Shown: one piece after another, positions 3,302 to 16,382 of the stretch | Layout: each line of letters opens with the position of its first letter | Numbering within the stretch: the stretch's first letter is position 1 | Source of the DNA: Glycomyces luteolus | Lineage (GTDB): Bacteria > Actinomycetota > Actinomycetes > Mycobacteriales > Micromonosporaceae | NCBI RefSeq assembly: GCF_027622875.1 | Contig: NZ_JAPZVP010000003.1 | Coordinates: 130,627-194,626, forward strand | DNA: 64,000 nucleotides | Reading direction: 5' to 3' | Notes under the pieces: generated by a model | The model's database searches: none | The model's input: the letters and a program-made list of their open reading frames with translations, nothing else | What the model was told of the DNA's origin: nothing | Made by a program: the position numbers and the translations under genes

Positions 3302-4570
3302 ATGAAGAGAAGACTCATCCTCACCGCCGGCACCGCCGGTGCGGCGGCCCTGCCACTCAGCGCCTGCGGCTTCATCGGCGGCGGCGACGACGAGGGCGAC
3401 GCGAAATCCGTCAAGTTCTGGCTCTCAGGCGACGCCAACCAAGGCGGCGGCTTCCAGAAGATGGCCGACAAGTACTTCGAGGAAACCGGGATCACCGTCG
3501 ACATCGACGACATCCCTTACGACGACTTCAACACCCGTCTGCGCAACGCCGCCCAGGCCGACGGCCTGCCCGACCTCGCCCGAGTCCAGGCCCTCGACCC
3601 GATCTGGATCAACCAGCTCGAGGACCTGAGCGACGTCGCGAGCGAGGCCGGGGTCATGGAGAACCTGGTCACCGAGAACGAAGAGGGCGCCGTCCCGACC
3701 TTCCTCACCGACCTCACCGCGGTGGGACTGTACGTCAACAAGTCCCTGTTCGACGAGGCCGGGGTCGCCTACCCGACCACCGCCGACCAGATCTGGACCT
3801 GGGACGAGTTCATCGCCGCCGTCAAGGAGGTCAAGGCCGCGACTGGAGCGCGCTACGGGCTCGTGATGGACCCGTCCTCGCACCGCCTGCGCGCGATGAT
3901 GTACCAGTTCGGCAGCAACGGCTTCGAGCTCGGCGACGACTGCACGTACTCGACCGACGAGCCGACCACGACCGCCGCGCTCGAGTTCTTCGCGAACATC
4001 AACGACGACGACGTGATGCCCCGCTCCGTGTGGGTCTCCGGCGACGACCCGAACGCCCTCTTCAAGAGCGGCCAGGTCGCGGCCTACTACTCCGGTTCGT
4101 GGCAGGTGGCCGACTTCCAGGCCAACATCGCCGACTTCGAATGGGCCTCGGCCATCATGCCGGCCCAGACGCGCCGCGCGACCAACCTCGGCGGCGGCTA
4201 CATCGTGGTCTACAAGGGCGGCAAGTCGCAGACCGCGCTCGACTTCATCAACTGGCTCTTCACAGCCGAGAACTACACCGAGATCTGCGAGATCTCCGGG
4301 TTCCTGCCGGTCATCCAGGGACTCGACATCGACTACGGCGCCGCCCAGACCAGCTTCGACCTGTACAACGAGGAGATCGCAGCCTCGGACCCGATCTCGA
4401 GCGCCCAAGAGCGGAACAACCTCCAGATGGCGTACGCGGGACAGAGCGCCGGCGGCGACGCCGACCCGCTCAAGGAAGAGGCGATCAAGCTCGCCAACGG
4501 CGAGCAGGACGTGCCCACGACCATCGCCAACATCATTGCCGGACTCAACGAGAACATCGTCTGCGAGTAA
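3302..4570 (+). CDS. Sugar ABC transporter substrate-binding lipoprotein (family 1)
   Basis: Extracellular sugar-binding lipoprotein of a CUT1-type ABC importer, 422 residues. The N-terminus has a KRR start, a short hydrophobic stretch and the lipobox LSAC with Cys22 as the lipidated residue. The body has the alternating fold of MalE/UgpB-like proteins (FWLSGDANQGGG, then PDLARVQALDP and the GGYIVVY segment). It is first in an operon with two permeases and a predicted glycan-degrading enzyme and is separated from permease 1 by about 4 nt. No ATPase gene is present, which is usual when a shared MsiK-type ATPase is used. The ligand is probably an oligosaccharide from the enzyme encoded downstream (inference). 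Confidence 0.92.
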   Translation: MKRRLILTAGTAGAAALPLSACGFIGGGDDEGDAKSVKFWLSGDANQGGGFQKMADKYFEETGITVDIDDIPYDDFNTRLRNAAQADGLPDLARVQALDPIWINQLEDLSDVASEAGVMENLVTENEEGAVPTFLTDLTAVGLYVNKSLFDEAGVAYPTTADQIWTWDEFIAAVKEVKAATGARYGLVMDPSSHRLRAMMYQFGSNGFELGDDCTYSTDEPTTTAALEFFANINDDDVMPRSVWVSGDDPNALFKSGQVAAYYSGSWQVADFQANIADFEWASAIMPAQTRRATNLGGGYIVVYKGGKSQTALDFINWLFTAENYTEICEISGFLPVIQGLDIDYGAAQTSFDLYNEEIAASDPISSAQERNNLQMAYAGQSAGGDADPLKEEAIKLANGEQDVPTTIANIIAGLNENIVCE

Positions 4571-4574
4571 CCCC

Positions 4575-5501
4575 TTGACGGCCACTGCCACCACCTCCCA
4601 GACCCCTGCGGGGCCGCGCGCGCGGCCCCGCAGGGGCCGCCGCGCCCAGTACCGGCTCGCGCCGCTCGCGCTCGCCGGCGCCAGCATCGTCCTGTTCCTC
4701 GTGTTCTTCGTCTGGCCCGGCGGCCTGGGCCTGATCTACTCGTTCACCGACTACTCCGGACTCGGGACTCCCGAGTTCGTCGGCACGGACAACTACGAGC
4801 GGCTCTTCGGCGACCCGACCTTCTACGAGTCCCTGACGCGGACCCTGCTGTTCGCGCTCCTGAGCGTGCCGCTCATGTACGTCATGTCGCTGTCCGTCGC
4901 GGCGCTCCTGGTCTCGAACCACACCAGGGGCAAGACCGCGGCGAAGCTCGTGTTCTTCTTCCCCTGGCTCATCTCCCCCATCGTCGCCGGCGTCATCTGG
5001 CGGTGGATGTTCGGCGAGAGCTTCGGCTTCGTCAACTACGTCATCGACCGCCTCGGCGGGAACCCCCTCGCCTGGCAGACCGACCCCGACCTCGCGCTCA
5101 TGGTCGTCGTCATAGCCGCGACCTGGGGCGGCACGGCCTTCAACATGCTGATCTTCATCGCCGCGCTCAAGAACGTGCCGCGCGCCTACTACGAGGCCGC
5201 CGAGATCGACGGGGCGAACGCCTGGCAGCGCTTCCGCAGCATCACGCTGCCGTCGATCGCGCCCACCTCGTTCCTGGTGATCCTCCTGTCCTCGCTCGGC
5301 GCCATGAAGGAGTTCGCGATGATCCAGGCGCTCAACGAAGGCGGTCCGGGCACCTCGAACGTGCTCCTGATCCAGTACATCTACGAGACCGGCTTCCAGC
5401 GGGCCGACATCGGCTACGCCAGCGCCGTCTCGATGGTCCTCCTGCTCATCCTGCTGACCATCGCCCTGGTGCAGATGGCCGTGAACCGGAGGAGCGCATG
5501 A
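4575..5501 (+). CDS. Sugar ABC transporter permease 1 (MalF type)
   Basis: Inner-membrane permease of the same importer, about 309 residues with six predicted helices. The first is LALAGASIVLFLVFFVWPGG. The EAA loop for ATPase contact is near residue 215 (EAAEIDGANAWQ). No ATG or GTG precedes the first helix. The best start is TTG 4575, four nt after the binding-protein stop, perhaps by translational coupling; TTG 4536 inside the upstream gene is the alternative. The Ala/Arg-rich N-terminal tail is typical of actinobacterial MalF homologues. The stop overlaps the next ATG. Confidence 0.9.
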   Translation: MTATATTSQTPAGPRARPRRGRRAQYRLAPLALAGASIVLFLVFFVWPGGLGLIYSFTDYSGLGTPEFVGTDNYERLFGDPTFYESLTRTLLFALLSVPLMYVMSLSVAALLVSNHTRGKTAAKLVFFFPWLISPIVAGVIWRWMFGESFGFVNYVIDRLGGNPLAWQTDPDLALMVVVIAATWGGTAFNMLIFIAALKNVPRAYYEAAEIDGANAWQRFRSITLPSIAPTSFLVILLSSLGAMKEFAMIQALNEGGPGTSNVLLIQYIYETGFQRADIGYASAVSMVLLLILLTIALVQMAVNRRSA

Positions 5502-6376
5502 GCACCTCGACAACCGCACCGCAGCAACCGGTGAAGCCGAAGGCGCGCAAGGCCAAGGAGCTCGGCAGCGTGGTCCCGATGACCACGTTCATGTGGCTGC
5601 TGGCGGTGCTGTACGCCTTCCCGCTCGTCTGGTTCCTCTTGAGCGCCTTCAAACCCGGGTCGGAGCTGTTCCAATACCCGCTCACGATCCTGCCGGAGAA
5701 CCCGACCGCGGCCGGGTTCGAGAAGGCCTGGGACCGGTTCGACTTCATGCTGTACTTCTCGAACACGCTCGCCGTGGCGCTCACGACCACCGTGCTGACG
5801 GTGTTCGCCAGCGCGATGACCGGGTACGCGCTCGCGAAGTACCAGGACAAGGTGTGGATCCGGATCTTCTTCGTGTGCCTCCTGGCCACGACGATGCTGC
5901 CGACCGAGGTCATCCTCTCGCCGACGTTCCTGGTCATCCGGGACCTGGGCATGTACGACTCGATGGCGGGCCTGGTGGTGCCGTCGATCCTCACGGCCAC
6001 CGGCGTGTTCATGTTCCGGCAGTACTTCGTGTCCATTCCGGACGACATCCTCGAGGCGGCCCGGATCGACGGGGCGCGCGAGACGGGTATCTTCTTCCGG
6101 ATCATGCTGCCGATGTCGCGGCCGATCATCATGACGCTGGCGATCTTCTCGTTCCAGTGGCGCTGGAACGACTACATCTGGCCGCTGATCGTGGTGGGCG
6201 ACGAGCGGAAGTTCACGCTGCAGATCGCCCTGCGGTCCATTGTGGGGGCTGAGAACATCGACTGGCCGCTGCTGCTGGCGGCCTCGGTGATGTCGATCCT
6301 GCCGCTGGTGCTCATCTTCATCGTGTTCCAGAAGTACGTCATGAACGAGGACATCAATGCCGGACTCAAGGACTGA
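5498..6376 (+). CDS. Sugar ABC transporter permease 2 (MalG type)
   Basis: Second inner-membrane permease, 292 residues, pairing with the upstream permease. About six transmembrane helices are visible, with the EAA motif EAARIDGARETG near residue 190. The ATG at 5498 overlaps the upstream stop (ATGA) and is preceded by GGAGGAGC, which fixes the start. The next gene begins 20 nt before this one ends, so translation of the whole operon is probably coupled. Family call is secure; the substrate is inferred only from context. Confidence 0.92.
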   Translation: MSTSTTAPQQPVKPKARKAKELGSVVPMTTFMWLLAVLYAFPLVWFLLSAFKPGSELFQYPLTILPENPTAAGFEKAWDRFDFMLYFSNTLAVALTTTVLTVFASAMTGYALAKYQDKVWIRIFFVCLLATTMLPTEVILSPTFLVIRDLGMYDSMAGLVVPSILTATGVFMFRQYFVSIPDDILEAARIDGARETGIFFRIMLPMSRPIIMTLAIFSFQWRWNDYIWPLIVVGDERKFTLQIALRSIVGAENIDWPLLLAASVMSILPLVLIFIVFQKYVMNEDINAGLKD

Positions 6377-8033
6377 CACGGTCTTCCTGGACGCGGTCAC
6401 CGCGGCGGCCGACGAGCGGGCGCAAGAGGTGCTCGCGGGGGTCGACGAACTCCTCGCGGGCGCGCCGCACCACCGGGCGGTCATGTCCGCCGCGAAGGCG
6501 CTGGTGGCGTGCGGGGTGCACCGGGCCTCGGCGTTCTACGCCTCGGAGGACGCGGCCCGGGCGGCGGAACGGCTCGTGGCGTTCCTGGCCCGGATGCAGG
6601 GCGGGAACGGCCTGTTCGACGCCGAGAACCTCGCTTCGCCGCCGGACACCGCGTTCACGGTCAACGACCTGTGCGACACGTACGCACTGCTGCGGGACGC
6701 ACCGGAGCCCCTGCGGCCCTTGGCCGGGGCACTGGAGCCGATCGCGATGGCGGCGGCCGGGCCGCTGCGGCTCGGCGGCGTCCACACGCCGAACCACCGC
6801 TGGGAGCTGTGCGCGGCGCTGGCGCGGCTCAACGCGCACTGGCCCGACGAGCGCCTGGTGGCGCGGGTCGAGGAGTGGCTGGCCGAGGGTATCGACATCG
6901 CCCCGGACGGCTTGTACTCGGAGCGGAGCCCGAACTACTCGCTGCACGTCTCGAACCCGTCGTTGACGGCGATCGGGACGTTGCTGGGGCGGCCGGAACT
7001 GCTCGACGCGGTGTACCGGAACCTCGAGGCGGTCGCGGCCACCGCGCTGCCCGACGGCACTGTGGAGACCGTGCATTCGCGGCGGCAGGACCAGCGCGTC
7101 CCGATCCCTCTGGCGCCGTTCCTGATGCAGTTCCGGCGGTTCGCGATCGCGCGGGAACGCGGGGACTTCGCGGCGGTCGTGCGCGAGATCCTCGAGTCGC
7201 CGATCGCGTATCCGAGCGAGGCGCTGGCCGAAATCCTGCTGGAGCCGGCGCTGGCCGGGCCGCTGCCTGAAGCCGAGGCGCCGAAGCCGGTGAGCGCGGT
7301 GTTCGATTCGGCGGGCCTGGCGGTGATCCGGGACGATGACTTCGCGGTCACGGTCTTCGGCGGCACGGACTACGCCGAGCACGGCTGGATCCGCTCGGGG
7401 CTGTCGAGCAATCCGACGTTCCTGCGGGTGTTCGCGGGCGAGGCCGTGCTGGATTCGGTGCGGCTCTCGCGGGACTTCTTCGGCATGGGGCCCTTCAGGT
7501 CCGGCGATTTCGAACTGGATGAGGGCTCGTTCGTCTTGACGGAGCGGGTCGCCGCCGCGTACTACCACCCGCTGCCCGCCGAGTTCCGTCGCGCGGACGG
7601 CGAGTACGCCCTCACCGACGACGGCCGCTTCTCCGCGTCGATGGACTTCCCGCACCGGCCTCGGGAGGTGTTGTCGTTGGAGACCGAGGCTCGGGTGCGA
7701 GTCGGTGAACGTGCAGTGCGCCTTGACATCGCGGCGGATCCGGGACGCGTGCGGCAGGTGCTGGAGCTGGCGTTCCGCGAGGGGGGCGAGCTGGAGGGCG
7801 TGCGGCCGTCGGCGTCCGGCGGGTTCGAGCCGGTCGGCGGCGAGTTCGCCTATGCGGCGGGCGGGCACCGGATCGCGGTCAGTGTGGACGGTCCGGGGAC
7901 GGGCCCCGCGCTCGGGTACCACCCCGGGGAGGACTACACGCACCTGTCGGGTACCGATGCGGCCCAAGGTCTCCGGGTGTACGTGCCGCTGCCTTCCAGC
8001 GGTCGTTCCACGGTGGTGTTCCAGGCTCGGTAA
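6357..8033 (+). CDS. Predicted (alpha/alpha)6-toroid glycan-active protein, heparinase II/III-like
   Basis: 558 residues without a signal peptide, so probably cytoplasmic. The N-terminal half (to about 300) is helical and carries HTPNHRWELCAAL, then SERSPNYSLHVSN, which I associate with toroid-fold polysaccharide lyase-like proteins. The C-terminal half is beta-rich, as in the sandwich domain of heparinase II/III-like lyases. The ATG at 6357 lies within the permease gene, behind a GAGG site, and overlaps it by 20 nt. Its place in a sugar-import operon suggests that it processes the imported oligosaccharide, perhaps an unsaturated uronate product. The exact reaction is unknown. A non-enzymatic role cannot be excluded. 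Confidence 0.62.
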   Translation: MPDSRTDTVFLDAVTAAADERAQEVLAGVDELLAGAPHHRAVMSAAKALVACGVHRASAFYASEDAARAAERLVAFLARMQGGNGLFDAENLASPPDTAFTVNDLCDTYALLRDAPEPLRPLAGALEPIAMAAAGPLRLGGVHTPNHRWELCAALARLNAHWPDERLVARVEEWLAEGIDIAPDGLYSERSPNYSLHVSNPSLTAIGTLLGRPELLDAVYRNLEAVAATALPDGTVETVHSRRQDQRVPIPLAPFLMQFRRFAIARERGDFAAVVREILESPIAYPSEALAEILLEPALAGPLPEAEAPKPVSAVFDSAGLAVIRDDDFAVTVFGGTDYAEHGWIRSGLSSNPTFLRVFAGEAVLDSVRLSRDFFGMGPFRSGDFELDEGSFVLTERVAAAYYHPLPAEFRRADGEYALTDDGRFSASMDFPHRPREVLSLETEARVRVGERAVRLDIAADPGRVRQVLELAFREGGELEGVRPSASGGFEPVGGEFAYAAGGHRIAVSVDGPGTGPALGYHPGEDYTHLSGTDAAQGLRVYVPLPSSGRSTVVFQAR

Positions 8034-8138: not shown

Positions 8139-8156
8139 CAACCAACTAGATGGTTG
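8139..8156. promoter_or_regulatory. Candidate operator A upstream of the AfsA-like gene
   Basis: CAACCA and TGGTTG form a 6-bp inverted repeat around ACTAGA. The core at 8142-8156 reads CCAACTAGATGGTTG and matches 12 of 15 bases at 13161-13175 in the TetR promoter. It overlaps a weak -35 candidate (TGGTTG at 8151) that lies 18 bp from TATAGG at 8175-8180. A second palindrome, TACGCATGCGTA, lies at 8089-8100. Binding by the TetR protein encoded at 12490-13143 is inferred. Confidence 0.55.
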
Positions 8157-8267: not shown

Positions 8268-9044
8268 ATGTTGACTGACCACCCCACTCTGCTGCTCGTA
8301 GGCAACCGATTCTCCGGATTCAGCGCCGCTCACCCGGAAGTCCTCACCGTCAGTGAGTTCATCCGACACCTCCGCAACGACGCGGGCGCTCCCCGACCCG
8401 AGCACCTCACCCTCCAGCCCGGCCAGGGCATCGGCGAGTCCCAATGGGACCTGCTGCGGCTCGAGATCGCCGAACGCGGTCTCTCCCACCGCATCCACCT
8501 CCTGCCGGCCCTCCCGGCTCCGGCCGGGCGCCACGAGACCCACAAGCACCTCGAGGTCAACCGCCTCATCGCCAGTCCCCGCATGACCGGCCCCGGCCGG
8601 TACCGAGCGGATCTGCGGGTGCACAACGACAACGAGCTGCTCATCGACCACCAGACCGGCCAGCACGTGCAGGGCATGGTCGCGGTCGAGGCGGCCCGGC
8701 AGATGTTCCTCACCGTCACCGAGCGCTTCCTGCTCCCCGACGACCGCGAGCGGTACTTCGTGATCAACTCGCTCGACACCGAGTTCGAGAACTTCCTGTT
8801 CCCGCTGGCCGCCGAGATCGACTACCGCATCGTCGAATCCGACACGGCCGACCCCGACCGCCTCTCGTTCACCGTGGAGATCGGCATCGAACAGGCCGGA
8901 CGCCGCTGCACCCGCACCGAAGTGAGGTTCACGGCCTTCGAGAACCGGCTCATCGAGTCCAAGGAGCAGCGCCGGGCCGAGAAGGCCCTCGCCGCGGTCG
9001 TGGAGCGGCGCGAAGGGGCCTATGCCGATGCAGCCGTCCACTGA
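8268..9044 (+). CDS. AfsA-type hotdog-domain protein (A-factor biosynthesis family)
   Basis: 258 residues with no signal peptide. Two weakly similar hotdog halves are visible. The first runs from about residue 92 (HKHLEVNRLIASPRMTGPG) through DHQTGQHVQGMVAVEAARQ, the region AfsA proteins use to condense a beta-ketoacyl thioester with dihydroxyacetone phosphate. The second covers about 185-250. Family knowledge: AfsA makes the first intermediate of gamma-butyrolactone hormones, and MmfL does so for furan signals. The start is fixed by AAAGAGG 8 nt upstream. It is first of five co-directional genes and overlaps the phosphatase gene by 23 nt. Assignment to the AfsA hotdog superfamily is fairly sure; the product is unknown. 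Confidence 0.75.
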   Translation: MLTDHPTLLLVGNRFSGFSAAHPEVLTVSEFIRHLRNDAGAPRPEHLTLQPGQGIGESQWDLLRLEIAERGLSHRIHLLPALPAPAGRHETHKHLEVNRLIASPRMTGPGRYRADLRVHNDNELLIDHQTGQHVQGMVAVEAARQMFLTVTERFLLPDDRERYFVINSLDTEFENFLFPLAAEIDYRIVESDTADPDRLSFTVEIGIEQAGRRCTRTEVRFTAFENRLIESKEQRRAEKALAAVVERREGAYADAAVH

Positions 9045-9762
9045 TGGGGAGTCCGAGTTCGACGCCGCTTTCTTCGACGTCGACGAGACGCTCCTGGCGA
9101 GCAAGAGCATGTTCCGCTTCCTGCGGTTCTACCTGCGCCGCAAGGGCGAACCGGAGCTCCTCTACGAGCGTCTCGCCGGCGAGCTGAGCACGCTGGCCGC
9201 CGCGGGCGTGCCGCGCGAGGAGGTCAACCGGGCGTACTACCGGCTCTACGCCGGTGAATCGGCCGAGCTCCTGGCCACTGTGGGCCGGGAATGGTTCGAG
9301 GACGAGCTGTCCGACCCCGGGTTCCTCCTCGAAGCACCGGTCGCCGAGCACGCGGAGCTGCGTGCGCGAGGCGTCCCGACCCACCTCGTCTCGGGCTCGT
9401 TCTTCGCCTGCCTGGAGCCCGCCGCCGCGCTCCTCGGGGCCTCCGAGACGCACGGCCCGCCGTTGCAGATCCGCAGAGGCCTCCTCACCGGCGAGATCGA
9501 CTACCCGGTCATCGGCCGGGGCAAGGCCGAGACCGTCCAAGCGGTGGCCCGCCTGCGCGGCTACCGGCTCGACCACTGCATCGCGTACGGCGACCACGCC
9601 ACCGACCTGCCGATGCTCGAGACCACCGGCACCGCCGTCGTCGTCGGTGACGACGCGGTGCTCCGCCGCCGCGCGGATGCGGCCGCCTGGCGCACTCTGC
9701 CGCAGACTCCGCGCACCGCGCCCCTTGAGCGCACCCCCGCGCGGCCCGGCATCGCCGCCTGA
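9022..9762 (+). CDS. HAD-superfamily phosphatase (HAD-IB, SerB-like)
   Basis: 246 residues, cytoplasmic phosphohydrolase. Motif I is DVDET with nucleophile Asp19 and Asp21; motif II is the Ser of VSGSF; the Lys is in GRGKAE; motif IV is YGDHATDLPML. Helical cap residues lie between motifs I and II, as in HAD-IB enzymes. It overlaps the AfsA-like gene by 23 nt and has GAAGGGG before the ATG. In MMF furan synthesis an AfsA homologue works with a HAD phosphatase (MmfP) that removes phosphate from the condensation product; this pairing suggests the same role here. The function is inferred from context, while the fold is secure. Confidence 0.82.
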   Translation: MPMQPSTDGESEFDAAFFDVDETLLASKSMFRFLRFYLRRKGEPELLYERLAGELSTLAAAGVPREEVNRAYYRLYAGESAELLATVGREWFEDELSDPGFLLEAPVAEHAELRARGVPTHLVSGSFFACLEPAAALLGASETHGPPLQIRRGLLTGEIDYPVIGRGKAETVQAVARLRGYRLDHCIAYGDHATDLPMLETTGTAVVVGDDAVLRRRADAAAWRTLPQTPRTAPLERTPARPGIAA

Positions 9763-9838
9763 ACCAGCGCGCTCTACCGGTCAACCCCGACGAATCCGGT
9801 CCCCGCCACCGAACCCGAACACCACTGGAGGCACCGCC

Positions 9839-10459
9839 ATGTCCGCGACCTATCTCCTCACCACCGAACTTCCCGTGCAGGCCGACCGGGCCGACGAGGC
9901 CGCAGCCGCCTGGAGCGAACTGCTGGCCGACGCGGCCGACAAGGACCGCGTCCTCTACCGCTGCCTCGAAGCCGACACCCTGCTCGAACTGCGCGCCCTC
10001 ACCGGGCTCGACGAGATCGCCGCGGCCGACGCGGACTTCGAAACCCAATGGCACGCGGTCGGACCGCACGCCGCCGGGGACTTCCGCCGCCAGGCGCTGC
10101 GCTTCGTGGAGGCCCCCAAGGAACCCGGCACCGCCCTCCCGGTGACCCCGTACGTGCAGCTGCGCTATGTGGAGGTCAAGCCCACCGCGTACGAGGCCTA
10201 CCGGGCCTGGCGCGAGGCCACCATCTTCGACGTCGTGCGCGGCGCCGAGGAAGTGGACTCCTTCAGCGCGTACCACACCGTGGTCAGCACCCAGCCCGGC
10301 GTGCTCTTCGTCAGCGGCTTCTCCTGCCCCCCTGAGCAGTACCAGCGTCCGTTCACTTCGGACCGCTACCGCGAGATCGTCCAGCAGGCCGGCGACCGCT
10401 ACATCACCGGCGGGCCCGGCGGCCTCTACACCCGCTGCTACGAGCGCATCGAACGCTAG
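9839..10459 (+). CDS. Unknown protein, possibly two dimeric alpha/beta-barrel modules
   Basis: 206 residues with no signal or membrane segment. It appears to be two related halves, about 1-100 and 103-206, each opening with a hydrophobic strand and an amphipathic helix (TYLLTTELPVQ and YVQLRYVEVKP). This resembles antibiotic-biosynthesis monooxygenase or dimeric alpha/beta-barrel proteins, but I see no diagnostic motif. ATG 9839 is preceded by GGAGG at 7 nt. It is the third gene of the AfsA-like operon, 76 nt after the phosphatase gene and 10 nt before the next. It may modify the signalling product; that is inference only. Confidence 0.7.
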   Translation: MSATYLLTTELPVQADRADEAAAAWSELLADAADKDRVLYRCLEADTLLELRALTGLDEIAAADADFETQWHAVGPHAAGDFRRQALRFVEAPKEPGTALPVTPYVQLRYVEVKPTAYEAYRAWREATIFDVVRGAEEVDSFSAYHTVVSTQPGVLFVSGFSCPPEQYQRPFTSDRYREIVQQAGDRYITGGPGGLYTRCYERIER

Positions 10460-10469
10460 GGGCGCACTC

Positions 10470-11300
10470 GTGAGCTCTGTCGTCCTGGACCTCAGCGTCA
10501 CCACCCAGGGACCCACCTATCCGCCCAGCGAGATCATGGACAAGGACGGGAACTTCGTCACCATCGGCCGGATCAACCGCGCCGGTGACGACGACACCGT
10601 CAGCGCCGCATGGGGATCGGCGCTCGTCGCGCAGGACAGTCCGCTACCGCCGTTCGGCGCCCAGGCGCCGTACCGGATCCTGCGCGAACTCACCGACGAC
10701 GACCGCGACATGGAGCTGTACACGCTGCCGCTCCCGCTGCCGTGCAACAACTACCCGATGCTGTTCGCCCCCGAGCAGCGTCCCGACGCGCACGAGGTGG
10801 TGCGGCCGAGCCACCCGCTGCACCAGGCGCCGATCCCGGACCTGCGCGAGGCCGACGGCCCGCGCCGCAGGGACCCGATCACCCTCGGGCAGTGGCGGCG
10901 GGCCCGCGGCCAGGTCGAGGTCACGGTGACCGAAGGCGGCACGGCCGCCGAGTTCGAGTTCTGGTTCACCGGCCTCATCCCCGACAGCGTCTACACCGTC
11001 ATGTCCCTGCGCCAGAAGGACCTCGACCCGGCCGGACCGACCCGTCCCGGGCCGCTCGGGATCCCGAACGCCTTCTACGCCGACCGGGGCGGCGCGGCCC
11101 ACTACACGGCCCGCCTGCCCGACCCGTTCCCCGCACCCGACCGGCTCGGCGCCAACCGCGTCATCAACGTCGTGGTGCTGTGGATGAGCTACCAGCAGAA
11201 CTACGGCGGCGCTATCGGCCACTTCGGACTCGGCGGGGACATCCACGCCCAGCTCAAGCTGACCGGACCGTCCTTTCAAGAGCTGATCACACGCTCATAG
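10470..11300 (+). CDS. Protein of unknown function in the AfsA-like operon
   Basis: 276 residues starting at GTG 10470, with AGGGG 9 nt upstream. No signal peptide, membrane helix or familiar catalytic motif is visible. It is rich in Pro and Asp, with short beta-like stretches (QVEVTVTEGGTAAEFEFWFTG, VYTVMSLRQKDLD) that suggest an immunoglobulin-like sandwich in the second half. It lies 10 nt after the preceding gene and 104 nt before the KAS III gene. Codon usage matches its neighbours. I do not recognise it; its linkage to hotdog and KAS III genes is the only functional hint. Confidence 0.65.
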   Translation: MSSVVLDLSVTTQGPTYPPSEIMDKDGNFVTIGRINRAGDDDTVSAAWGSALVAQDSPLPPFGAQAPYRILRELTDDDRDMELYTLPLPLPCNNYPMLFAPEQRPDAHEVVRPSHPLHQAPIPDLREADGPRRRDPITLGQWRRARGQVEVTVTEGGTAAEFEFWFTGLIPDSVYTVMSLRQKDLDPAGPTRPGPLGIPNAFYADRGGAAHYTARLPDPFPAPDRLGANRVINVVVLWMSYQQNYGGAIGHFGLGGDIHAQLKLTGPSFQELITRS

Positions 11301-11404
11301 CCGAGCGAGGTGAGCGATCCCCGGGAACCCGGGGCCGCAGCGACGCGGCACCGGGCGAACACCCTCCCTCCACCGATCGCCGACCCGATTCGAGGTGACC
11401 GATC

Positions 11405-12442
11405 ATGGCCATGCCCTTGTCTCCCACCGCAACCCCGACCGACTCCCCCACCGCCGCAAGGCGGCCCGTGGGGATCGTCGGCACCGGCTCCTACCTGCCG
11501 TCCCGCGTCGTCGGCAACGACGAAGTGGGCGCCAGAGCAGGCGTCGACGCCGAATGGATCCTCCGCAAGACCGGCATCGGCGCCCGCCGCTACGCCGCGG
11601 CCGACGAGGCCACCTCCGACCTCGCCGCCCACGCCGGGCGCGCGGCGCTGGAGGACGCCGGCGTGGACCCGGCCCGTCTCGACTGCATCATCGTCGCCAC
11701 GTCCACACCGGACCATCCGCAGCCCGCGACGGCCGCGATCGTGCAGCACCGGCTCGGCGCCGACGGCGTTCCCGCGTTCGACGTGAACGCCGTCTGCACC
11801 GGCTTCCTGTTCGCGATGGCCGCGGCCTGGAGGCTCGTCGCCGACGGCGGCCGCGCGCTCGTCATCGGCGCGGACATCTACTCGCGCATCATCAACCCCG
11901 CCGACCGGCGCACCGCGGTCCTCTTCGGCGACGGCGCCGGCGCGGTCGTCCTGGGGCCGGTCCCCGAAGACCGCGGCATCACCGCCGCGACCCTGCGAAC
12001 CCATGGGGCGCACCACGAGATGATCAACGTGCCCGCCGGCGGCAGCCGCTACCCGGCGCGGCTGCGCGACGCCGACGACGACGCGCATTACTTCGCCATG
12101 GACGGCAGGGCCGTGCGCGCCTTCGTCACCGAGCAGCTCCCGCTCTCGGTGAAGGAGGCCGTCGAGGAGGCCCGCACGACCACCAGCGACATCCGGCACT
12201 TCGTGCCGCACCAGGCGAACGGGCAGATGCTCGACGAGATCCAGCCGAGCCTCGGGCTCCACAACGCCTCGAGCCACCGCACCGTCGCCGAGTACGGCAA
12301 CACCGGCTCCGCGTCGGTGCCGGTCACGCTCGACCGGGCGAACCGGTCCGGGGCGTTCGAGGACGGCGACCAGGTACTGCTCTCAGGGTTCGGCGGCGGC
12401 ATGTCGATCGGCAGCGCCGTCCTGCGCTGGAGCCGCCGGTGA
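11405..12442 (+). CDS. 3-oxoacyl-ACP synthase III (KAS III, FabH-like)
   Basis: 345 residues. Thiolase-fold enzyme that condenses an acyl-CoA starter with malonyl-ACP to give a beta-ketoacyl-ACP. The triad is Cys131 in NAVCTGFLF, His269 in VPHQAN and Asn299 in EYGNTGS, with the 30-residue His-Asn spacing of FabH. About 20 extra N-terminal residues precede the core. ATG 11405 has GAGGTGA 7 nt upstream. It is the last gene of the AfsA-like operon, and a beta-ketoacyl-ACP is the substrate AfsA enzymes use, so it may supply a dedicated acyl chain. It is unlikely to be the housekeeping FabH given the absence of fab neighbours. Confidence 0.9.
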   Translation: MAMPLSPTATPTDSPTAARRPVGIVGTGSYLPSRVVGNDEVGARAGVDAEWILRKTGIGARRYAAADEATSDLAAHAGRAALEDAGVDPARLDCIIVATSTPDHPQPATAAIVQHRLGADGVPAFDVNAVCTGFLFAMAAAWRLVADGGRALVIGADIYSRIINPADRRTAVLFGDGAGAVVLGPVPEDRGITAATLRTHGAHHEMINVPAGGSRYPARLRDADDDAHYFAMDGRAVRAFVTEQLPLSVKEAVEEARTTTSDIRHFVPHQANGQMLDEIQPSLGLHNASSHRTVAEYGNTGSASVPVTLDRANRSGAFEDGDQVLLSGFGGGMSIGSAVLRWSRR

Positions 12443-12449
12443 CGGTCCG

Positions 12450-12481
12450 CCCGGCCGGCGGGGCCTCCCCCGCCGGCCGGG
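12450..12481. terminator. Bidirectional hairpin between KAS III and TetR genes
   Basis: A 14-bp perfect stem (CCCGGCCGGCGGGG at 12450-12463 with its complement at 12468-12481) and a CCTC loop lie between convergent genes. It could end transcripts from both sides. No T-run. Confidence 0.7.
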
Positions 12482-12489
12482 CCCCGGCC

Positions 12490-13143
12490 CTAACCCTGCA
12501 GCAGTCGCGCCGCGCCCGGCGGGAAGTCGTCCGGGGCGCTGGCGACCGCTTCGATGCTCGCCCGCCCGAACGCGTTCAGGGAGGCCCGCAGCGCCTCCAG
12601 GGTCGTTACCTCCGGGCGCAGCTCGATGAACAGGAGGTTCCGCTGCTGCGGCATCACGAACGGCCACGAGGAGATCCCGATGAGGGTGATCAGCAGCGCG
12701 GCCACCGCGGGCGCGTTGTCGACCCCGAGCGCGCGCTGGAGGGCGGCGATCTTGTCCTCGTAGAACGCCTGCCGCTCGTCGCGCCACGGCAGCGGCGAAT
12801 CCCCGAACGTCAGTCCCTCCCAGGCGATCAGCCGCACCATGCTGGGATCGCGCAGGTGGAAGTCGAAGACCGCGCCAACGTACTCGTCGAGCCCGGCGCG
12901 GTCGGTCGGCAGCGGCACCGCCTCGCCGAGCCGCCGGTGCGCCTCGCGCAGCACCTCGGCGAACAGGTTCTCCTTGCTCTTGAAGTACGCGTAGATCCGC
13001 TGCTTGTTGCATCCCGCGAGGGTGGCGATGCGGTCCACGCGCGCCCCGGCAGGGCCGTGCTCGGTGAACTCTTCGTAGGCGGCTTGCAATATGGCGTCCC
13101 GGGTCCGGTTCGAGACGGGCCGGGCGACGGATTGAGCGGGCAT
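12490..13143 (-). CDS. TetR-family transcriptional regulator
   Basis: 217 residues. N-terminal helix-turn-helix at about residues 10-57 (TRDAILQAAYEEF, then GARVDRIATLAGCNKQRIYAYF), with a helical ligand domain behind it. It lies between the AfsA-like operon, with which it converges, and the SDR operon, from which it diverges. I start it at ATG 13143 because a TACAAT -10 ends 6 nt before it, giving a leaderless transcript. The upstream in-frame TTG 13164 would fall inside the operator. A near-palindrome in its promoter matches one upstream of the AfsA-like gene, so it likely controls itself, that operon and perhaps the SDR operon. Its sequence is not obviously of the ArpA/ScbR subgroup. Confidence 0.88.
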   Translation of the reverse strand: MPAQSVARPVSNRTRDAILQAAYEEFTEHGPAGARVDRIATLAGCNKQRIYAYFKSKENLFAEVLREAHRRLGEAVPLPTDRAGLDEYVGAVFDFHLRDPSMVRLIAWEGLTFGDSPLPWRDERQAFYEDKIAALQRALGVDNAPAVAALLITLIGISSWPFVMPQQRNLLFIELRPEVTTLEALRASLNAFGRASIEAVASAPDDFPPGAARLLQG

Positions 13144-13149
13144 CGCGGC

Positions 13150-13176
13150 ATTGTATCTCGCCAACTAACCGGTTGG
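13150..13176. promoter_or_regulatory. TetR promoter -10 and candidate operator B
   Basis: On the minus strand TACAAT occupies 13155-13150 and ends 6 nt before ATG 13143. Just upstream, 13161-13176 reads CCAAC, six bases, GTTGG. Bases 13161-13175 match operator A at 8142-8156 in 12 of 15 positions (CCAACTANNYGGTTG). A repressor here would cover the space between -35 and -10. Confidence 0.55.
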
Positions 13177-13302
13177 GCGGCCTCGGTCGGCCCGAACCGC
13201 TTCTGATAGAACCATCCGGACGGCCGCGAAGCGGGCGCCCGGTCCACGAAGGCCGTCACCTCCATAGCGGACGGTACGGCCTCGAGACCTGAACGGAGCA
13301 CC

Positions 13303-14112
13303 ATGTCCGCACAGCAGCACTCCGAGACGATCGACATCGCCCTGGTCAGCGGCGCGACCGGCGGCATGGGCGGCGCCATCGCCGCCCGCCTCGCGAGCGA
13401 CGGCGCCCTCGTCGTCATGCTCGGCCGCGACGCCGCCCGCCTCGACACCGCCCGTGAACGCCTCGCCGGCTCGCTCGCACCCGAAGCGGCCGACCGGCTC
13501 CACAGCCTGGTCCTCGACATCAACGACACCGCCTCCGTCGACGCGGGCGTCGCGTCCGTGATCGCCGAGCACGGCCGCGTGGACATCCTCGTCAACGCCG
13601 CGGGCGACGGGCCGGTCGCCCCGCTCGACCAGGCCGACGACGACATGTGGGCGACCACGCTGGGCGGCAAGCTCCTCGGCGCGATGCGCCTCACCCGCGC
13701 CGTCGCCGCCCCGATGACCGAGCGCGGCAGCGGCCGCATCGTCTTCGTCAACGGCGTCTTCCGCTCCGAACCCGACCCGATGTTCGTGGTCAACTCCGTC
13801 GCCAACGCCGGACTCGGCGGCCTCGCCAAGGCCATCTCGAAAGACCTGGGCCGCAAGGGCATCCGCGTCAACACCGTCGACCCCGGCGCTACCGACACGG
13901 CACTGTGGGCGGACATCGTCGCCGACCTCGGCTCCCGGCTCGGCGTCGACCCCGCGGAGCTCGACAAGCAGATCCAGAGCGGCGTGCCGCTCGGCCGCCT
14001 CGTCGACCCCGAGGAGGTCGCCGCCGCCGTGGCCTTCCTCGTCTCGCCCGGGGCCGCGATGGTCAACGGCGCCTTCATCACCGTCGATGGCGGCGCGCGG
14101 GCCTCGGTGTAG
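13303..14112 (+). CDS. SDR-family protein lacking the catalytic Ser-Tyr-Lys
   Basis: 269 residues with a Rossmann fold. The cofactor motifs are intact: GATGGMG at 17-23, NAAG at 98-101 and the DPGATDT segment. The active site is not: aligning KAISKDLG with the usual YxxxK region puts Asn164 and Asn168 where Tyr and Lys should be, and the catalytic Ser is Gly151. It is therefore either a non-canonical oxidoreductase or a binding protein. It is first in a four-gene operon with an MFS transporter, a tautomerase and a carboxymuconolactone decarboxylase-like gene, and divergent from the TetR gene. The ATG follows CGGAG. The fold is secure; the activity is unknown. Confidence 0.85.
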   Translation: MSAQQHSETIDIALVSGATGGMGGAIAARLASDGALVVMLGRDAARLDTARERLAGSLAPEAADRLHSLVLDINDTASVDAGVASVIAEHGRVDILVNAAGDGPVAPLDQADDDMWATTLGGKLLGAMRLTRAVAAPMTERGSGRIVFVNGVFRSEPDPMFVVNSVANAGLGGLAKAISKDLGRKGIRVNTVDPGATDTALWADIVADLGSRLGVDPAELDKQIQSGVPLGRLVDPEEVAAAVAFLVSPGAAMVNGAFITVDGGARASV

Positions 14113-14116
14113 CGCC

Positions 14117-15352
14117 ATGACCGCCGTCAGCGCTCCCGCCGCACCGGAGGACACCGCGCTCCTCACCGTCCCCTGGCCGGCCGCGATCACCGCCGCCGCG
14201 GTCACGTGCGTCGCCGTCGCCTCCGTGTACCTGACGCAGCCGATCTTCCCCGAGATCGCCGCGCACTTCGGCGTCGCCGACGAGCAGGCCCGCTACGCGT
14301 TCACCGGCGCGAGCCTGGCCTACGCCCTCTCGTTCTTCCTCTTCGGACCGCTGACCGACCGTGTCCCGTTGCGGTTCATGGGCTTCGGCGGCGCGGTGGC
14401 GCTGGCGGCATTGCTGGCGGTGGCGGCGTTCAGCCCAGGGTTCGGCGTGTTCGTGGCGCTGCTGGGCCTCGCCGGGGCCGCTGCCGCGGCGGTGCCCTCG
14501 GCGATGATCGCGCTCATGCCGCGCCTGGCCCCGCCCGCGTTGAAGGGCATGCTGTTCGGCCTCGTCATCGGCGCTTCGGTCGCGGGCATCACGTTGGGCC
14601 GCTCGGTCACCGGCGTGGTGGCCGAATGGACGGACTGGCGCACTGCGGTGGTCAGCGTCGCCGTGCTCAACCTGATCGGCGCGGCCGCGATGCTGACGCT
14701 GCCGCGCCTGTCCGCTCCGGCGGGGACGGGCGGGCCCGTGCGGTCGGCCTACGGGGCGGTCCTCGGCCTGTTCCGGCTCCCGGCCACGGTGCGGCTGCTC
14801 GCGCTGGGGGTGTGCCTGTTCTTCGGGTACCTCGGGGTCGCGACGTTCCTGACCTACCGCCTGCAGGCCGCGCCGTTCGAGTACGACGTGGCCGCGATCG
14901 GCCTGCTCAACCTCGCCGGGCTCGTCGGCGTGGTGGGCGCCCCGGCCGCCGGCCGGCTCGTGCCGCGCATCGGCGCACCCGCCGTGGTGTTCGCCGGGCT
15001 CGGCACGGTGCTCGCGGGCATCGCGCTGCTCGGCTTCGCCGCGCACCCGACCATGATCGCGGCCGGGACGCTGCTGCTGTTCGCGGGCGTCTTCGCCTGC
15101 CAGCCCGCGGTACTGGTCATGCTCGCCGCCGCCGCGCCGCCCGGCAGCCAGGGCGGCGCCTCCTCGCTGTACATGCTCGTCTGCCTGCTGGCGGGCTCCG
15201 CCGCCAGCGCCGCTCTCGGTCCCGTGTGGACGAATAGCGGTTGGACGGGCGTGGTGCTCACCGGGATCGCCGCGGTGCTGGCCGCGGCGGTCCTCGCCTC
15301 GGCCGCGCGGTCGAGGCGTCCTGTTCCGCAACCGAGTCAAGGAGGAAACTGA
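14117..15352 (+). CDS. MFS transporter, drug/metabolite exporter type
   Basis: 411 residues, about 12 transmembrane helices, cytoplasmic membrane. The loop 2-3 signature appears as FGPLTDRVPLRFMGF. The overall pattern (YLTQPIFPEIAAHFGV, then YALSFFLFGPLTDR) resembles the YnfM/arabinose-efflux group of exporters. It starts 4 nt after the SDR stop and its stop overlaps the tautomerase ATG by one base, so the operon is tightly coupled. It may export the product of the neighbouring biosynthetic genes or confer tolerance (inference). The substrate cannot be read from sequence. Confidence 0.88.
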   Translation: MTAVSAPAAPEDTALLTVPWPAAITAAAVTCVAVASVYLTQPIFPEIAAHFGVADEQARYAFTGASLAYALSFFLFGPLTDRVPLRFMGFGGAVALAALLAVAAFSPGFGVFVALLGLAGAAAAAVPSAMIALMPRLAPPALKGMLFGLVIGASVAGITLGRSVTGVVAEWTDWRTAVVSVAVLNLIGAAAMLTLPRLSAPAGTGGPVRSAYGAVLGLFRLPATVRLLALGVCLFFGYLGVATFLTYRLQAAPFEYDVAAIGLLNLAGLVGVVGAPAAGRLVPRIGAPAVVFAGLGTVLAGIALLGFAAHPTMIAAGTLLLFAGVFACQPAVLVMLAAAAPPGSQGGASSLYMLVCLLAGSAASAALGPVWTNSGWTGVVLTGIAAVLAAAVLASAARSRRPVPQPSQGGN

Positions 15353-15564
15353 TGCCGTTCATCACCGTCACGACCTGGCCGAACCAGACCGACGAGCAGT
15401 GCCAGAAGCTCATCGAGGAACTCACCGCCACGACCCACGAGGTCACTGGCGCGCCGCTGGACAAGATCACCGTGGTCGTTCACGAGGTCCCGCAGGCCCG
15501 TTGGGGCGAGGCCGGGATCATGGCCACGAACCCGGAGTTCCCCGAGCTCAGCCGCCGTCGCTGA
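15352..15564 (+). CDS. 4-oxalocrotonate tautomerase-like protein
   Basis: 70 residues. The initiator Met is followed by Pro, the catalytic base of tautomerases after Met removal (PFITVTTW). The short beta-alpha-beta length fits the 4-OT family, which acts as hexamers on enol or keto groups. The usual Arg11 and Arg39 are not obvious, so the substrate may differ from oxalocrotonate. A strong GGAGG site lies inside the end of the MFS gene, and the ATG overlaps its TGA. 4-OT homologues occur in several secondary-metabolite clusters, which agrees with this setting. Confidence 0.85.
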   Translation: MPFITVTTWPNQTDEQCQKLIEELTATTHEVTGAPLDKITVVVHEVPQARWGEAGIMATNPEFPELSRRR

Positions 15565-15587
15565 CCAATCTGAAAGGACTGTATTCA

Positions 15588-16382
15588 ATGGACGAGCAAG
15601 CCGAACTCGGTCGCTACGACCGGGGCCTGGAGATCCTGCGGCGCTTGGCCGGTGAGGACGAGCCCGCGGTGACGCGGGACTTCACCGACATCGCGCCCGA
15701 TCTGGGGCGACTCACCGTGGAGTTCCCGTACGGGGACGTGTACCACCGCTCCGAGCTGGACCTCCGCGAGCGCCAGTTGGCGACGATCGGCGGCCTGGCC
15801 GCCCTCGGGTACGCGTTGCCGCAGTTGCGGTTCCACATCGCAGGGGCGCTCAACATCGGCTGCAGCAGGCGCGAGATCGTGGAAGCGATCATGCACCTGG
15901 CGTCCTACACGGGGTTCCCGGCGGTGCTCAACGCGATCACCGTGGCGAAGGACGTGTTCGCCTCCCGGGACGACGACGAGCCGGGCTACGCGGATGCGGC
16001 GCCGGAGCCGGAGGGCTCGCGCTATGAGCGCGGTTGGAAGGCCCTGGCGGAGATCGACGGTCACGCGGGCGAAGCGGTGATCGAGAACCTGCAGTCGATC
16101 GCGCCCGACCTGGGGCGGTACATCATCGAGTTCGCGTTCGGCGACCTCTACGTGCGCGGCGGGCTGGACCTGCGCTCGCGCGAGATCGTCACGATCGCCG
16201 CGTGCACGGCGCTCGGGAGTGCGCTGCCGCAGTTGAAGGTGCACATCCACGGTCTGCTCAATGTGGGCGGCACACGGGAGGAAGTCGTCGAGACGATCCT
16301 CCAGATGGCGGTGTACGCGGGGTTCCCGGCGGCGCTGAACGCCATGAACGCCGCGAAGGAGGTCTTCGCCGACCGCGACTGA
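15588..16382 (+). CDS. Tandem two-domain carboxymuconolactone decarboxylase-like protein
   Basis: 264 residues made of two similar halves, about 10-130 and 140-264. Each has the CMD/AhpD-like helical pattern: LDLRERQLATIGGLAALG with YALPQLRFHIAGALNIGCSR, and LDLRSREIVTIAACTALG with ALPQLKVHIHGLLNVGGTR. No CxxC pair is present, so an AhpD peroxidase role is unlikely. The gene starts 23 nt after the tautomerase gene, behind AAAGGA. Together with a tautomerase this suggests processing of a lactone or beta-keto compound, but no substrate can be assigned. It is the last gene before a strong bidirectional terminator. Confidence 0.85.
   Translation: MDEQAELGRYDRGLEILRRLAGEDEPAVTRDFTDIAPDLGRLTVEFPYGDVYHRSELDLRERQLATIGGLAALGYALPQLRFHIAGALNIGCSRREIVEAIMHLASYTGFPAVLNAITVAKDVFASRDDDEPGYADAAPEPEGSRYERGWKALAEIDGHAGEAVIENLQSIAPDLGRYIIEFAFGDLYVRGGLDLRSREIVTIAACTALGSALPQLKVHIHGLLNVGGTREEVVETILQMAVYAGFPAALNAMNAAKEVFADRD

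Follow-up and report, generated by a model that had tools for sequence, protein, structure and literature searches.

The 64,000-nucleotide window analysed here (contig NZ_JAPZVP010000003.1, positions 130,627–194,626) derives from Glycomyces luteolus, whose 5.74 Mb genome is designated G000 among the genomes of the genus, and it carries a row of five open reading frames (ORFs), g1–g5, on the plus strand at positions 8268–12442. The row begins with g1 (8268–9044), which encodes a single-hotdog protein of the AfsA family (258 aa) proposed to act as a phosphorylated-butenolide synthase, and continues with g2 (9022–9762), which overlaps g1 by 23 nt and encodes a HAD-IB phosphatase. These genes are followed by g3 (9839–10459; 206 aa), g4 (10470–11300; 276 aa, GTG start) and g5 (11405–12442), which encodes a β-ketoacyl-acyl carrier protein (ACP) synthase III (KAS III). 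The initial annotation, made from the letters alone, had described five co-directional genes with this overlap, assigned AfsA, HAD and KAS III functions to g1, g2 and g5, and gave no function to the two embedded proteins. The ORF calls and the Pfam and NCBIfam matches of g1, g2 and g5 confirm this description, and neither g3 nor g4 matches any family in Pfam or NCBIfam. Since relatives of all five proteins (31–90% identity over the loci compared) sit in the same neighbourhood in other genomes, the gene row is more than a chance arrangement.

The unit is larger than this row and extends to position 16382. A TetR-family regulator (12490–13164, minus strand; TetR_N and TetR_C_21), the proposed repressor of both operons, lies next to g5, and a second plus-strand row begins with a short-chain dehydrogenase/reductase (SDR) family oxidoreductase (13303–14112; adh_short_C2). 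This gene is followed by a predicted major facilitator superfamily (MFS) exporter (14087–15352; MFS_1, 115.2 bits), whose start codon is provisional, a 70-aa enzyme of the 4-oxalocrotonate tautomerase type (15352–15564; Tautomerase, 46.1 bits), and a double carboxymuconolactone decarboxylase (CMD)-family protein (15588–16382), in which the Pfam CMD domain matches two stretches. Upstream of the unit, the region 4536–8033 encodes an ABC transporter permease (BPD_transp_1) and, downstream of it, a 558-aa protein that has no Pfam match; the gene for the latter likewise lies upstream of the island in the sister genome G016.

A hidden Markov model comparison placed g1 in the AfsA hotdog family, as had been predicted (PF03756; 58.2 bits, cut-off 24), with the match limited to residues 92–222. 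Against the ScbA/BarX model NF041195, g1 scored 28.5 bits where 200 are needed for a full-length tandem-hotdog protein. A canonical butyrolactone synthase role is accordingly not upheld for this single-hotdog protein. In profile comparisons, residues 90–222, EAARQ motif included, align with the C-terminal hotdog of canonical AfsA proteins (98.5%), in which residues 1–88 have no counterpart. The N-terminus was also considered as a degenerate hotdog and rejected, with values of 0.2% against canonical AfsA and 0.1% against the hotdog of g1 itself. As judged from these profiles, g1 is a half-AfsA, consisting of one hotdog and an unrelated N-terminus, and not a canonical γ-butyrolactone (GBL) synthase. 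Of the 36 g1 sequences, 26 were aligned, that of the window among them; those omitted were mostly near-copies, along with one locus (L058) in which g1 is split over two ORFs. All 26 proteins match the AfsA family at E 0.01, and Asp127, His128, Glu141, Ala142, Arg144 and Gln145 are invariant among them. Glu141 and Arg144 are presumably the counterparts of the ScbA catalytic residues. The best match of g1 in a profile search of the PDB reached only E 0.18. In the class sample, 23 of the 26 AfsA-positive genomes have at least two domain matches, mostly as side-by-side pairs, and a single match was found in the remaining three, one of which is the genome of the window, where g1 is the only place matched by the family. 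A tree of 62 rows, from which duplicates and run-on ORFs (L019, L023, L090, L098, L109 and L112) were left out, splits the canonical AfsA proteins from the single-hotdog ones with support of 100/99; some of its branches are very long, and the bootstrap has not yet settled. Two Glycomyces genomes devoid of g4 (G002 and G007; loci L077 and L078) encode other single-hotdog AfsA proteins, both with SDR and HAD genes nearby, which suggests a second type of half-AfsA cluster.

The remaining family assignments in the first row are clear. The g2 protein scores 114.2 bits against Pfam HAD (cut-off 27) and 104.5 bits against the HAD-IB model TIGR01490 (cut-off 98.3), and the DxDxT motif is present in all 36 HAD homologues checked, window included. 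The g5 protein matches ACP_syn_III and ACP_syn_III_C in Pfam, scores 301.8 bits against the NCBIfam FabH model (cut-off 292.1), and carries the Cys (CTGF), His (HQAN) and Asn (YGNTGS) motifs.

Structure prediction, proposed earlier for the two proteins of no family, gave different outcomes for g3 and g4. The g3 model (pLDDT 91.2) adopts a tandem ferredoxin-like arrangement with a fold near those of antibiotic biosynthesis monooxygenase (ABM)-type proteins, including the monooxygenase PenE; the best Foldseek match was 3f44 (E 1.3e-9), and PenE (9kdp) was matched at E 3.8e-7. The g4 model (pLDDT 85.4) is mostly β and resembles only weakly the sandwiches of the CuZn superoxide dismutase type and POLDIP2. 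No Foldseek match of g4 reached E 0.001, the query TM score was at most 0.30 among the 50 matches listed, and these weak matches were not used for any functional call. The best matches in profile searches of the PDB were at E 0.4 for g4 and E 0.75 for g3. Alignments of 29 of 37 g4 and 27 of 34 g3 sequences, window included and mostly near-copies left out, revealed many invariant polar residues in g4. Tests for internal sequence repeats in g3 and g4 were negative. The candidate identification of g4 as an AvrD protein was likewise rejected: AvrD (PF05655) matches neither g4 nor any other protein of its genome, and at the two AvrD loci examined out of three found, neither of them a known sphydrofuran locus, there was no relative of g1, g3 or g4. 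AvrD matches occur in three of 197 genomes of the class.

Searching named genomes with g4, an approach that picks up close relatives without being exhaustive, returned 36 loci spread over three phyla. They belong to Streptomyces, Kitasatospora, Glycomyces, Amycolatopsis, Ruegeria, Celeribacter, Pantoea, Ewingella, Aquabacterium, Myxococcus and Corallococcus, together with two records named only Burkholderiaceae or Actinobacteria. Within the stretches fetched for these loci, g1 is present in 35, HAD in 35 (34 within 8 kb of g4), g3 in all except three myxobacterial loci (33), and KAS III in 22. The last count shows that the initial annotation overstated KAS III as the mark of a new variant. Among the 14 loci without KAS III, a thiolase lies near g4 in two, an AMP-binding ligase in seven, and neither in five. 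Judged from this pattern of occurrence, g3 and g4 are the conserved core genes of the unit, with g4 as its defining gene. The other genes are less constant: within 8 kb of g4, TetR is found in 18 of 36 loci, SDR in 26 (at a loose threshold) and CMD in 11, and tautomerase homologues of at least 44% identity occur in 22 loci, often near g4. An MFS protein is encoded at positions 4650–6332 of locus L037. Gene order varies; in L029, for example, it is rearranged to g3-g4-TetR-SDR-MFS-tautomerase-CMD, followed by AfsA-HAD-KAS III. The unit is also rare, since g4 was detected in five of 22 genomes of the genus, none of 79 other relatives, and five of 394 genomes of the class (own genome counted).

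In a collection of 72,556 plasmid records, not checked for inclusion of the methylenomycin plasmid SCP1, the only matches to g3 or g4 were in Ruegeria, Streptomyces sp. YIM 121038 and Enterobacter. Beside AfsA, the Streptomyces plasmid (L066, 4542–10881) encodes its own KAS III, a phosphopantetheine-binding protein and a TauD-type dioxygenase, which hints at a product that is oxidised further. The Enterobacter hormaechei plasmid NZ_CP077309.1 (L067, 8001–11578) holds an eroded unit with shortened g3 and HAD genes, in which the tautomerase, MFS and aldo/keto reductase (AKR) are kept; no AfsA or g4 match was found in its 16.4 kb stretch. A genomic island of Klebsiella michiganensis, as far as the accessible text describes it (PMC12708576), contains a row of AKR, acetyl-CoA C-acetyltransferase, CMD, MFS, HAD-IB, tautomerase, an AfsA-related hotdog protein and LysR, and by this gene list it resembles the Pantoea/Ewingella version of the unit.

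The TetR protein scored 46.6 bits against the ScbR model NF041196 (cut-off 150) and was therefore rejected as an ScbR equivalog; no ScbR/ArpA-type receptor in the genome exceeds this cut-off, the best score being 67.7 bits. An operator-like palindrome, AACCAACTAGATGGTTG (8140–8156), starts 128 bp before the start codon of g1. A second operator-like site, CCAACTAACCGGTTGG (13161–13176), overlaps the start of TetR and begins 142 bp before the start codon of SDR. The 15-bp sequence CCAACTANNNGGTTG occurs exactly only twice in the 5.74 Mb genome, at 8142–8156 before g1 and at 13161–13175 between TetR and SDR. Because this pattern was picked after both sites had been seen, relatives provide the fair test of the operator. 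Counting the window, 19 loci have a visible TetR relative, and the palindrome, with up to two of the 14 fixed bases of AACCANCTAGNTGGTT allowed to change, was detected in 17 of them and in none of 17 loci without TetR. One further locus (L041), counted apart, has the palindrome on a contig that ends before TetR would appear. In the two TetR loci missed by the search (L029 and L030), the version that precedes g1 or g3 has diverged. The palindrome also precedes the SDR gene in nine loci from Streptomyces or Kitasatospora. Within the genus, AACCANCTRGNTGGTT is exact in two of 22 genomes, G000 and G016, at this locus in both, and is absent from three others with a close TetR (G006, G008 and G019).

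Gene-order comparison revealed no conserved synteny with an unrelated pathway, and it led to a cluster for the killing of competitors in the marine bacterium Ruegeria pomeroyi DSS-3 rather than to a pure autoregulator locus. On the megaplasmid of this bacterium (L065), the genes for g3, AfsA, g4, tautomerase and HAD stand side by side; a CMD gene is also present, and an MFS protein is annotated nearby. This core is shared with the window, in a different gene order, with identities of 41% for g1, 44% for g2, 57% for g3 (over 158 of 206 residues), 56% for g4, 47% for tautomerase and 44% for CMD. Mapping by gene order equates SPOA0341 with g4 and SPOA0343 with g3, as far as position allows. The SPOA0339–0344 region was published as a "GBL" cluster by Sharpe et al. 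in 2020 (PMC7426152), and the following points come from the accessible part of that report. Six of the seven isolated mutants carried an insertion in the cluster: afsA (SPOA0342) was hit three times, SPOA0341 twice and SPOA0344 once. Insertions in these three genes abolish diffusible killing. The SPOA0341 and SPOA0344 mutants become sensitive to the parent, whereas the afsA mutants do not. Compared with the afsA mutant, the wild type expresses ten cluster genes 4- to 60-fold more strongly, and they account for 10 of only 21 changed genes out of 4,252. The SPOA0339–0343 proteins are cited from others as 1–6% of the proteome, and homologues of SPOA0341–0343 in actinobacteria and gammaproteobacteria were already listed. 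The killing molecule is not named in the accessible text, and no identification was found in the portions of the later open-access literature that were available. The whole Glycomyces unit is thus a variant, with KAS III, TetR and SDR, of a cluster family that has already been published.

Gene content, conservation, co-occurrence and the correlation between operator and TetR gene are observed by computation, and killing and afsA-dependent expression are published for R. pomeroyi; each chemical step in Glycomyces, the contact between repressor and operator, and an antibacterial role there are inferred. The unit would probably serve the biosynthesis, export and self-induction of a small diffusible metabolite that derives from a butenolide or furan and is most likely an antibacterial, within the family of the R. 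pomeroyi killing cluster. In the proposed scheme, KAS III would make a short β-ketoacyl-ACP, which the single-hotdog AfsA protein would join to dihydroxyacetone phosphate (DHAP) or another ketose phosphate, yielding a phosphorylated butenolide. The HAD-IB enzyme would remove the phosphate, and g3, g4, SDR, tautomerase and CMD may then reshape the ring before MFS exports the product. TetR may repress both operons via the shared palindrome-like site until the product or an intermediate releases it, resulting in autoinduction. Joining β-ketoacyl thioesters and DHAP is the reaction of AfsA-type enzymes. It has a parallel in an antibiotic pathway in which, according to the accessible text (PMC7756379), an AfsA-like domain joins a β-ketoacyl thioester and DHAP. 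A product of the butenolide or furan type is preferred because a KAS III supplier, a HAD phosphatase and several ring-editing enzymes fit it, as in methylenomycin and sphydrofuran biosynthesis. The phenotype in R. pomeroyi, together with the exporter and the shared operator, favours a self-inducing antibacterial over a hormone alone, a choice that is a matter of judgement. For the earlier proposal of an autoregulator biosynthesis system, this means that butenolide-type chemistry stands as the most likely route and that an autoregulatory role is possible, favoured by the afsA-dependent cluster expression; an ScbR-type receptor above the cut-off, however, is lacking.

Like the GBL systems of the A-factor and SCB type, in which AfsA or ScbA is paired with ScbR or ArpA, the unit has an AfsA-family protein and an adjoining TetR-family regulator, but it differs in the single hotdog with an unrelated N-terminus, the TetR score below the ScbR cut-off and the separate tree branch. 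With the MmfL/MmfP/MmfH furan system it shares the HAD phosphatase beside AfsA. MmfH is a flavin-type reductase, and none of this kind was found among the ten genes of 8268–16382 scanned against Pfam. The remaining comparisons draw on the accessible parts of the cited articles. In the methylenomycin system (MmyC/MmyD with MmfL/MmfH/MmfP), antibiotic and inducer arise from one cluster and the butenolide enzyme of the antibiotic is AvrD-like (PMC12593393); the logic of a β-ketoacyl-ACP supplier combined with a butenolide-forming enzyme is shared with the window. In the sphydrofuran cluster of Streptomyces ambofaciens (PMC11195616), the butenolide-forming enzyme is surrounded by KAS III, aldo/keto reductases, CMD and an antibiotic biosynthesis monooxygenase, but this enzyme is of the AvrD family and is accompanied by a histidine phosphatase, unlike the window. 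In Chromobacterium subtsugae (PMC12114271), an AfsA-related hotdog protein and a HAD-IB protein are co-expressed with an efflux pump and strongly upregulated at 18 h with quorum sensing active; compared by description only, this operon has AfsA and HAD-IB in common with the window and differs by MarR and the CdeAB-OprM pump. The accessible text of PMC7744662 and PMC12766979 gives no link to this cluster.

Several observations weigh against a self-inducing antibacterial unit of this kind. We know of no metabolite from any member of the cluster family, which leaves a single domain family as the basis for the product class, and the substrate of g1 may differ since the protein has no N-terminal hotdog of the canonical type. 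The g1 proteins that go with g4 do not form one clade in the tree (three changes), because three g1 proteins from g4-less genomes nest among them. The sister genome G016 has the same island, with 85–94% protein identity and both exact operator sites, and keeps g1, g2, g3, KAS III, TetR and CMD without g4 anywhere in the genome; SDR, MFS and tautomerase had no match in the 19 kb examined, so this version, if functional, would do without them and g4. About 290 bp separate g3 from KAS III in G016, with an apparent remnant of g4 discernible by eye, and a deletion of g4 is the likely history. The kept genes show dN/dS values of 0.09–0.29 and no stops, indicating purifying selection, and this continued constraint counts against g4 being needed in every version. 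Regarding the operator, CCAACTANNNGGTTG with one mismatch has 10 matches in the genome against seven for a reversed control, so that only the exact sites stand out, and the site at 13161–13176 is the weaker of the two since the stricter pattern AACCANCTAGNTGGTT misses it. The R. pomeroyi cluster differs from the window in having AKR and LysR in place of SDR and TetR (LysR and AKR queries found no match within 8 kb of g4 in the window); its MFS protein does not match that of the window, and KAS III had no match in the 18.8 kb examined. Finally, the afsA mutants keep immunity even though the cluster is down and insertions may be polar, for which reasons the killing in R. pomeroyi could be indirect; the authors also leave open, in the accessible text, that the GBL is a signal only (PMC7426152).

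An alternative that concerns g4 in particular, and that we consider unlikely, is that g4 serves self-protection, perhaps together with MFS, and is not an enzyme of the pathway. The SPOA0341 mutants, assigned to g4 by gene order, became sensitive to their parent, G016 misses g4 together with MFS (and also SDR and tautomerase), and the predicted g4 model resembles no enzyme well. These mutants lost killing too, however, and the afsA mutants stayed immune with the cluster down (PMC7426152, accessible part); polar effects on the downstream tautomerase and HAD genes are possible, and the many invariant polar residues of g4 also argue against this alternative. Rather improbable is a pure autoregulator, in which the product would be a hormone sensed by TetR or another receptor and the Ruegeria killing would come from genes switched on elsewhere. 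It is consistent with the classical hormone enzymology of AfsA and a HAD phosphatase, with a TetR gene adjoining the operon and a matching site at both operons, and with the control of afsA over transcription of its own cluster in R. pomeroyi, for which the authors themselves offer this alternative (PMC7426152, accessible part). Against it, the afsA mutant leaves few genes outside the cluster to make the killer, the unit has its own exporter and several tailoring enzymes, and the genome has no ScbR-type receptor above the cut-off. A catabolic or detoxification operon, in which SDR, tautomerase and CMD would degrade a furan or lactone imported by MFS and AfsA, HAD and KAS III would only modify it, agrees with the adjoining TetR or LysR regulators and with the tautomerase and CMD families, which are named after and have a role in aromatic and lactone catabolism. 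It is very improbable, since the most constant genes near g4 are AfsA, HAD and g3, the R. pomeroyi relative is needed for killing (PMC7426152, accessible part), and nine of the 14 KAS III-less loci retain a thiolase or AMP-binding ligase (the other five having none of the three), a frequent retention of an acyl thioester supplier that points to synthetic logic.

The self-inducing antibacterial reading can be extended, tentatively and with some doubt, to the whole family. Single-hotdog AfsA with g3 and g4 would then be the common core of a separate class of antibacterials derived from butenolides, one that has spread horizontally, occurs in three phyla and relies on a single molecule as the weapon and as the inducer of its own cluster. 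KAS III, a thiolase or an acyl ligase would be exchangeable as the acyl supplier, SDR or AKR as the reductase, and TetR or LysR as the regulator, and g4 would represent a new enzyme or immunity family. Relative to the accessible parts of related published work, the single-hotdog AfsA split, the exchange of acyl suppliers, the palindrome linked to TetR and the g4-less sister genome seem to be new.

By analogy with R. pomeroyi, this cluster of a soil actinomycete may function as a self-inducing chemical weapon rather than as a plain hormone system. The actinomycete version is compact and comes with its own acyl supplier and exporter and a candidate operator, and could thus be transferred as a whole into a laboratory Streptomyces. 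Solving the cluster would provide a function for g3 and g4, both "hypothetical protein" in plasmid records, and could help to clarify whether clusters annotated as "GBL" outside Actinomycetota stand for a hormone or a weapon.

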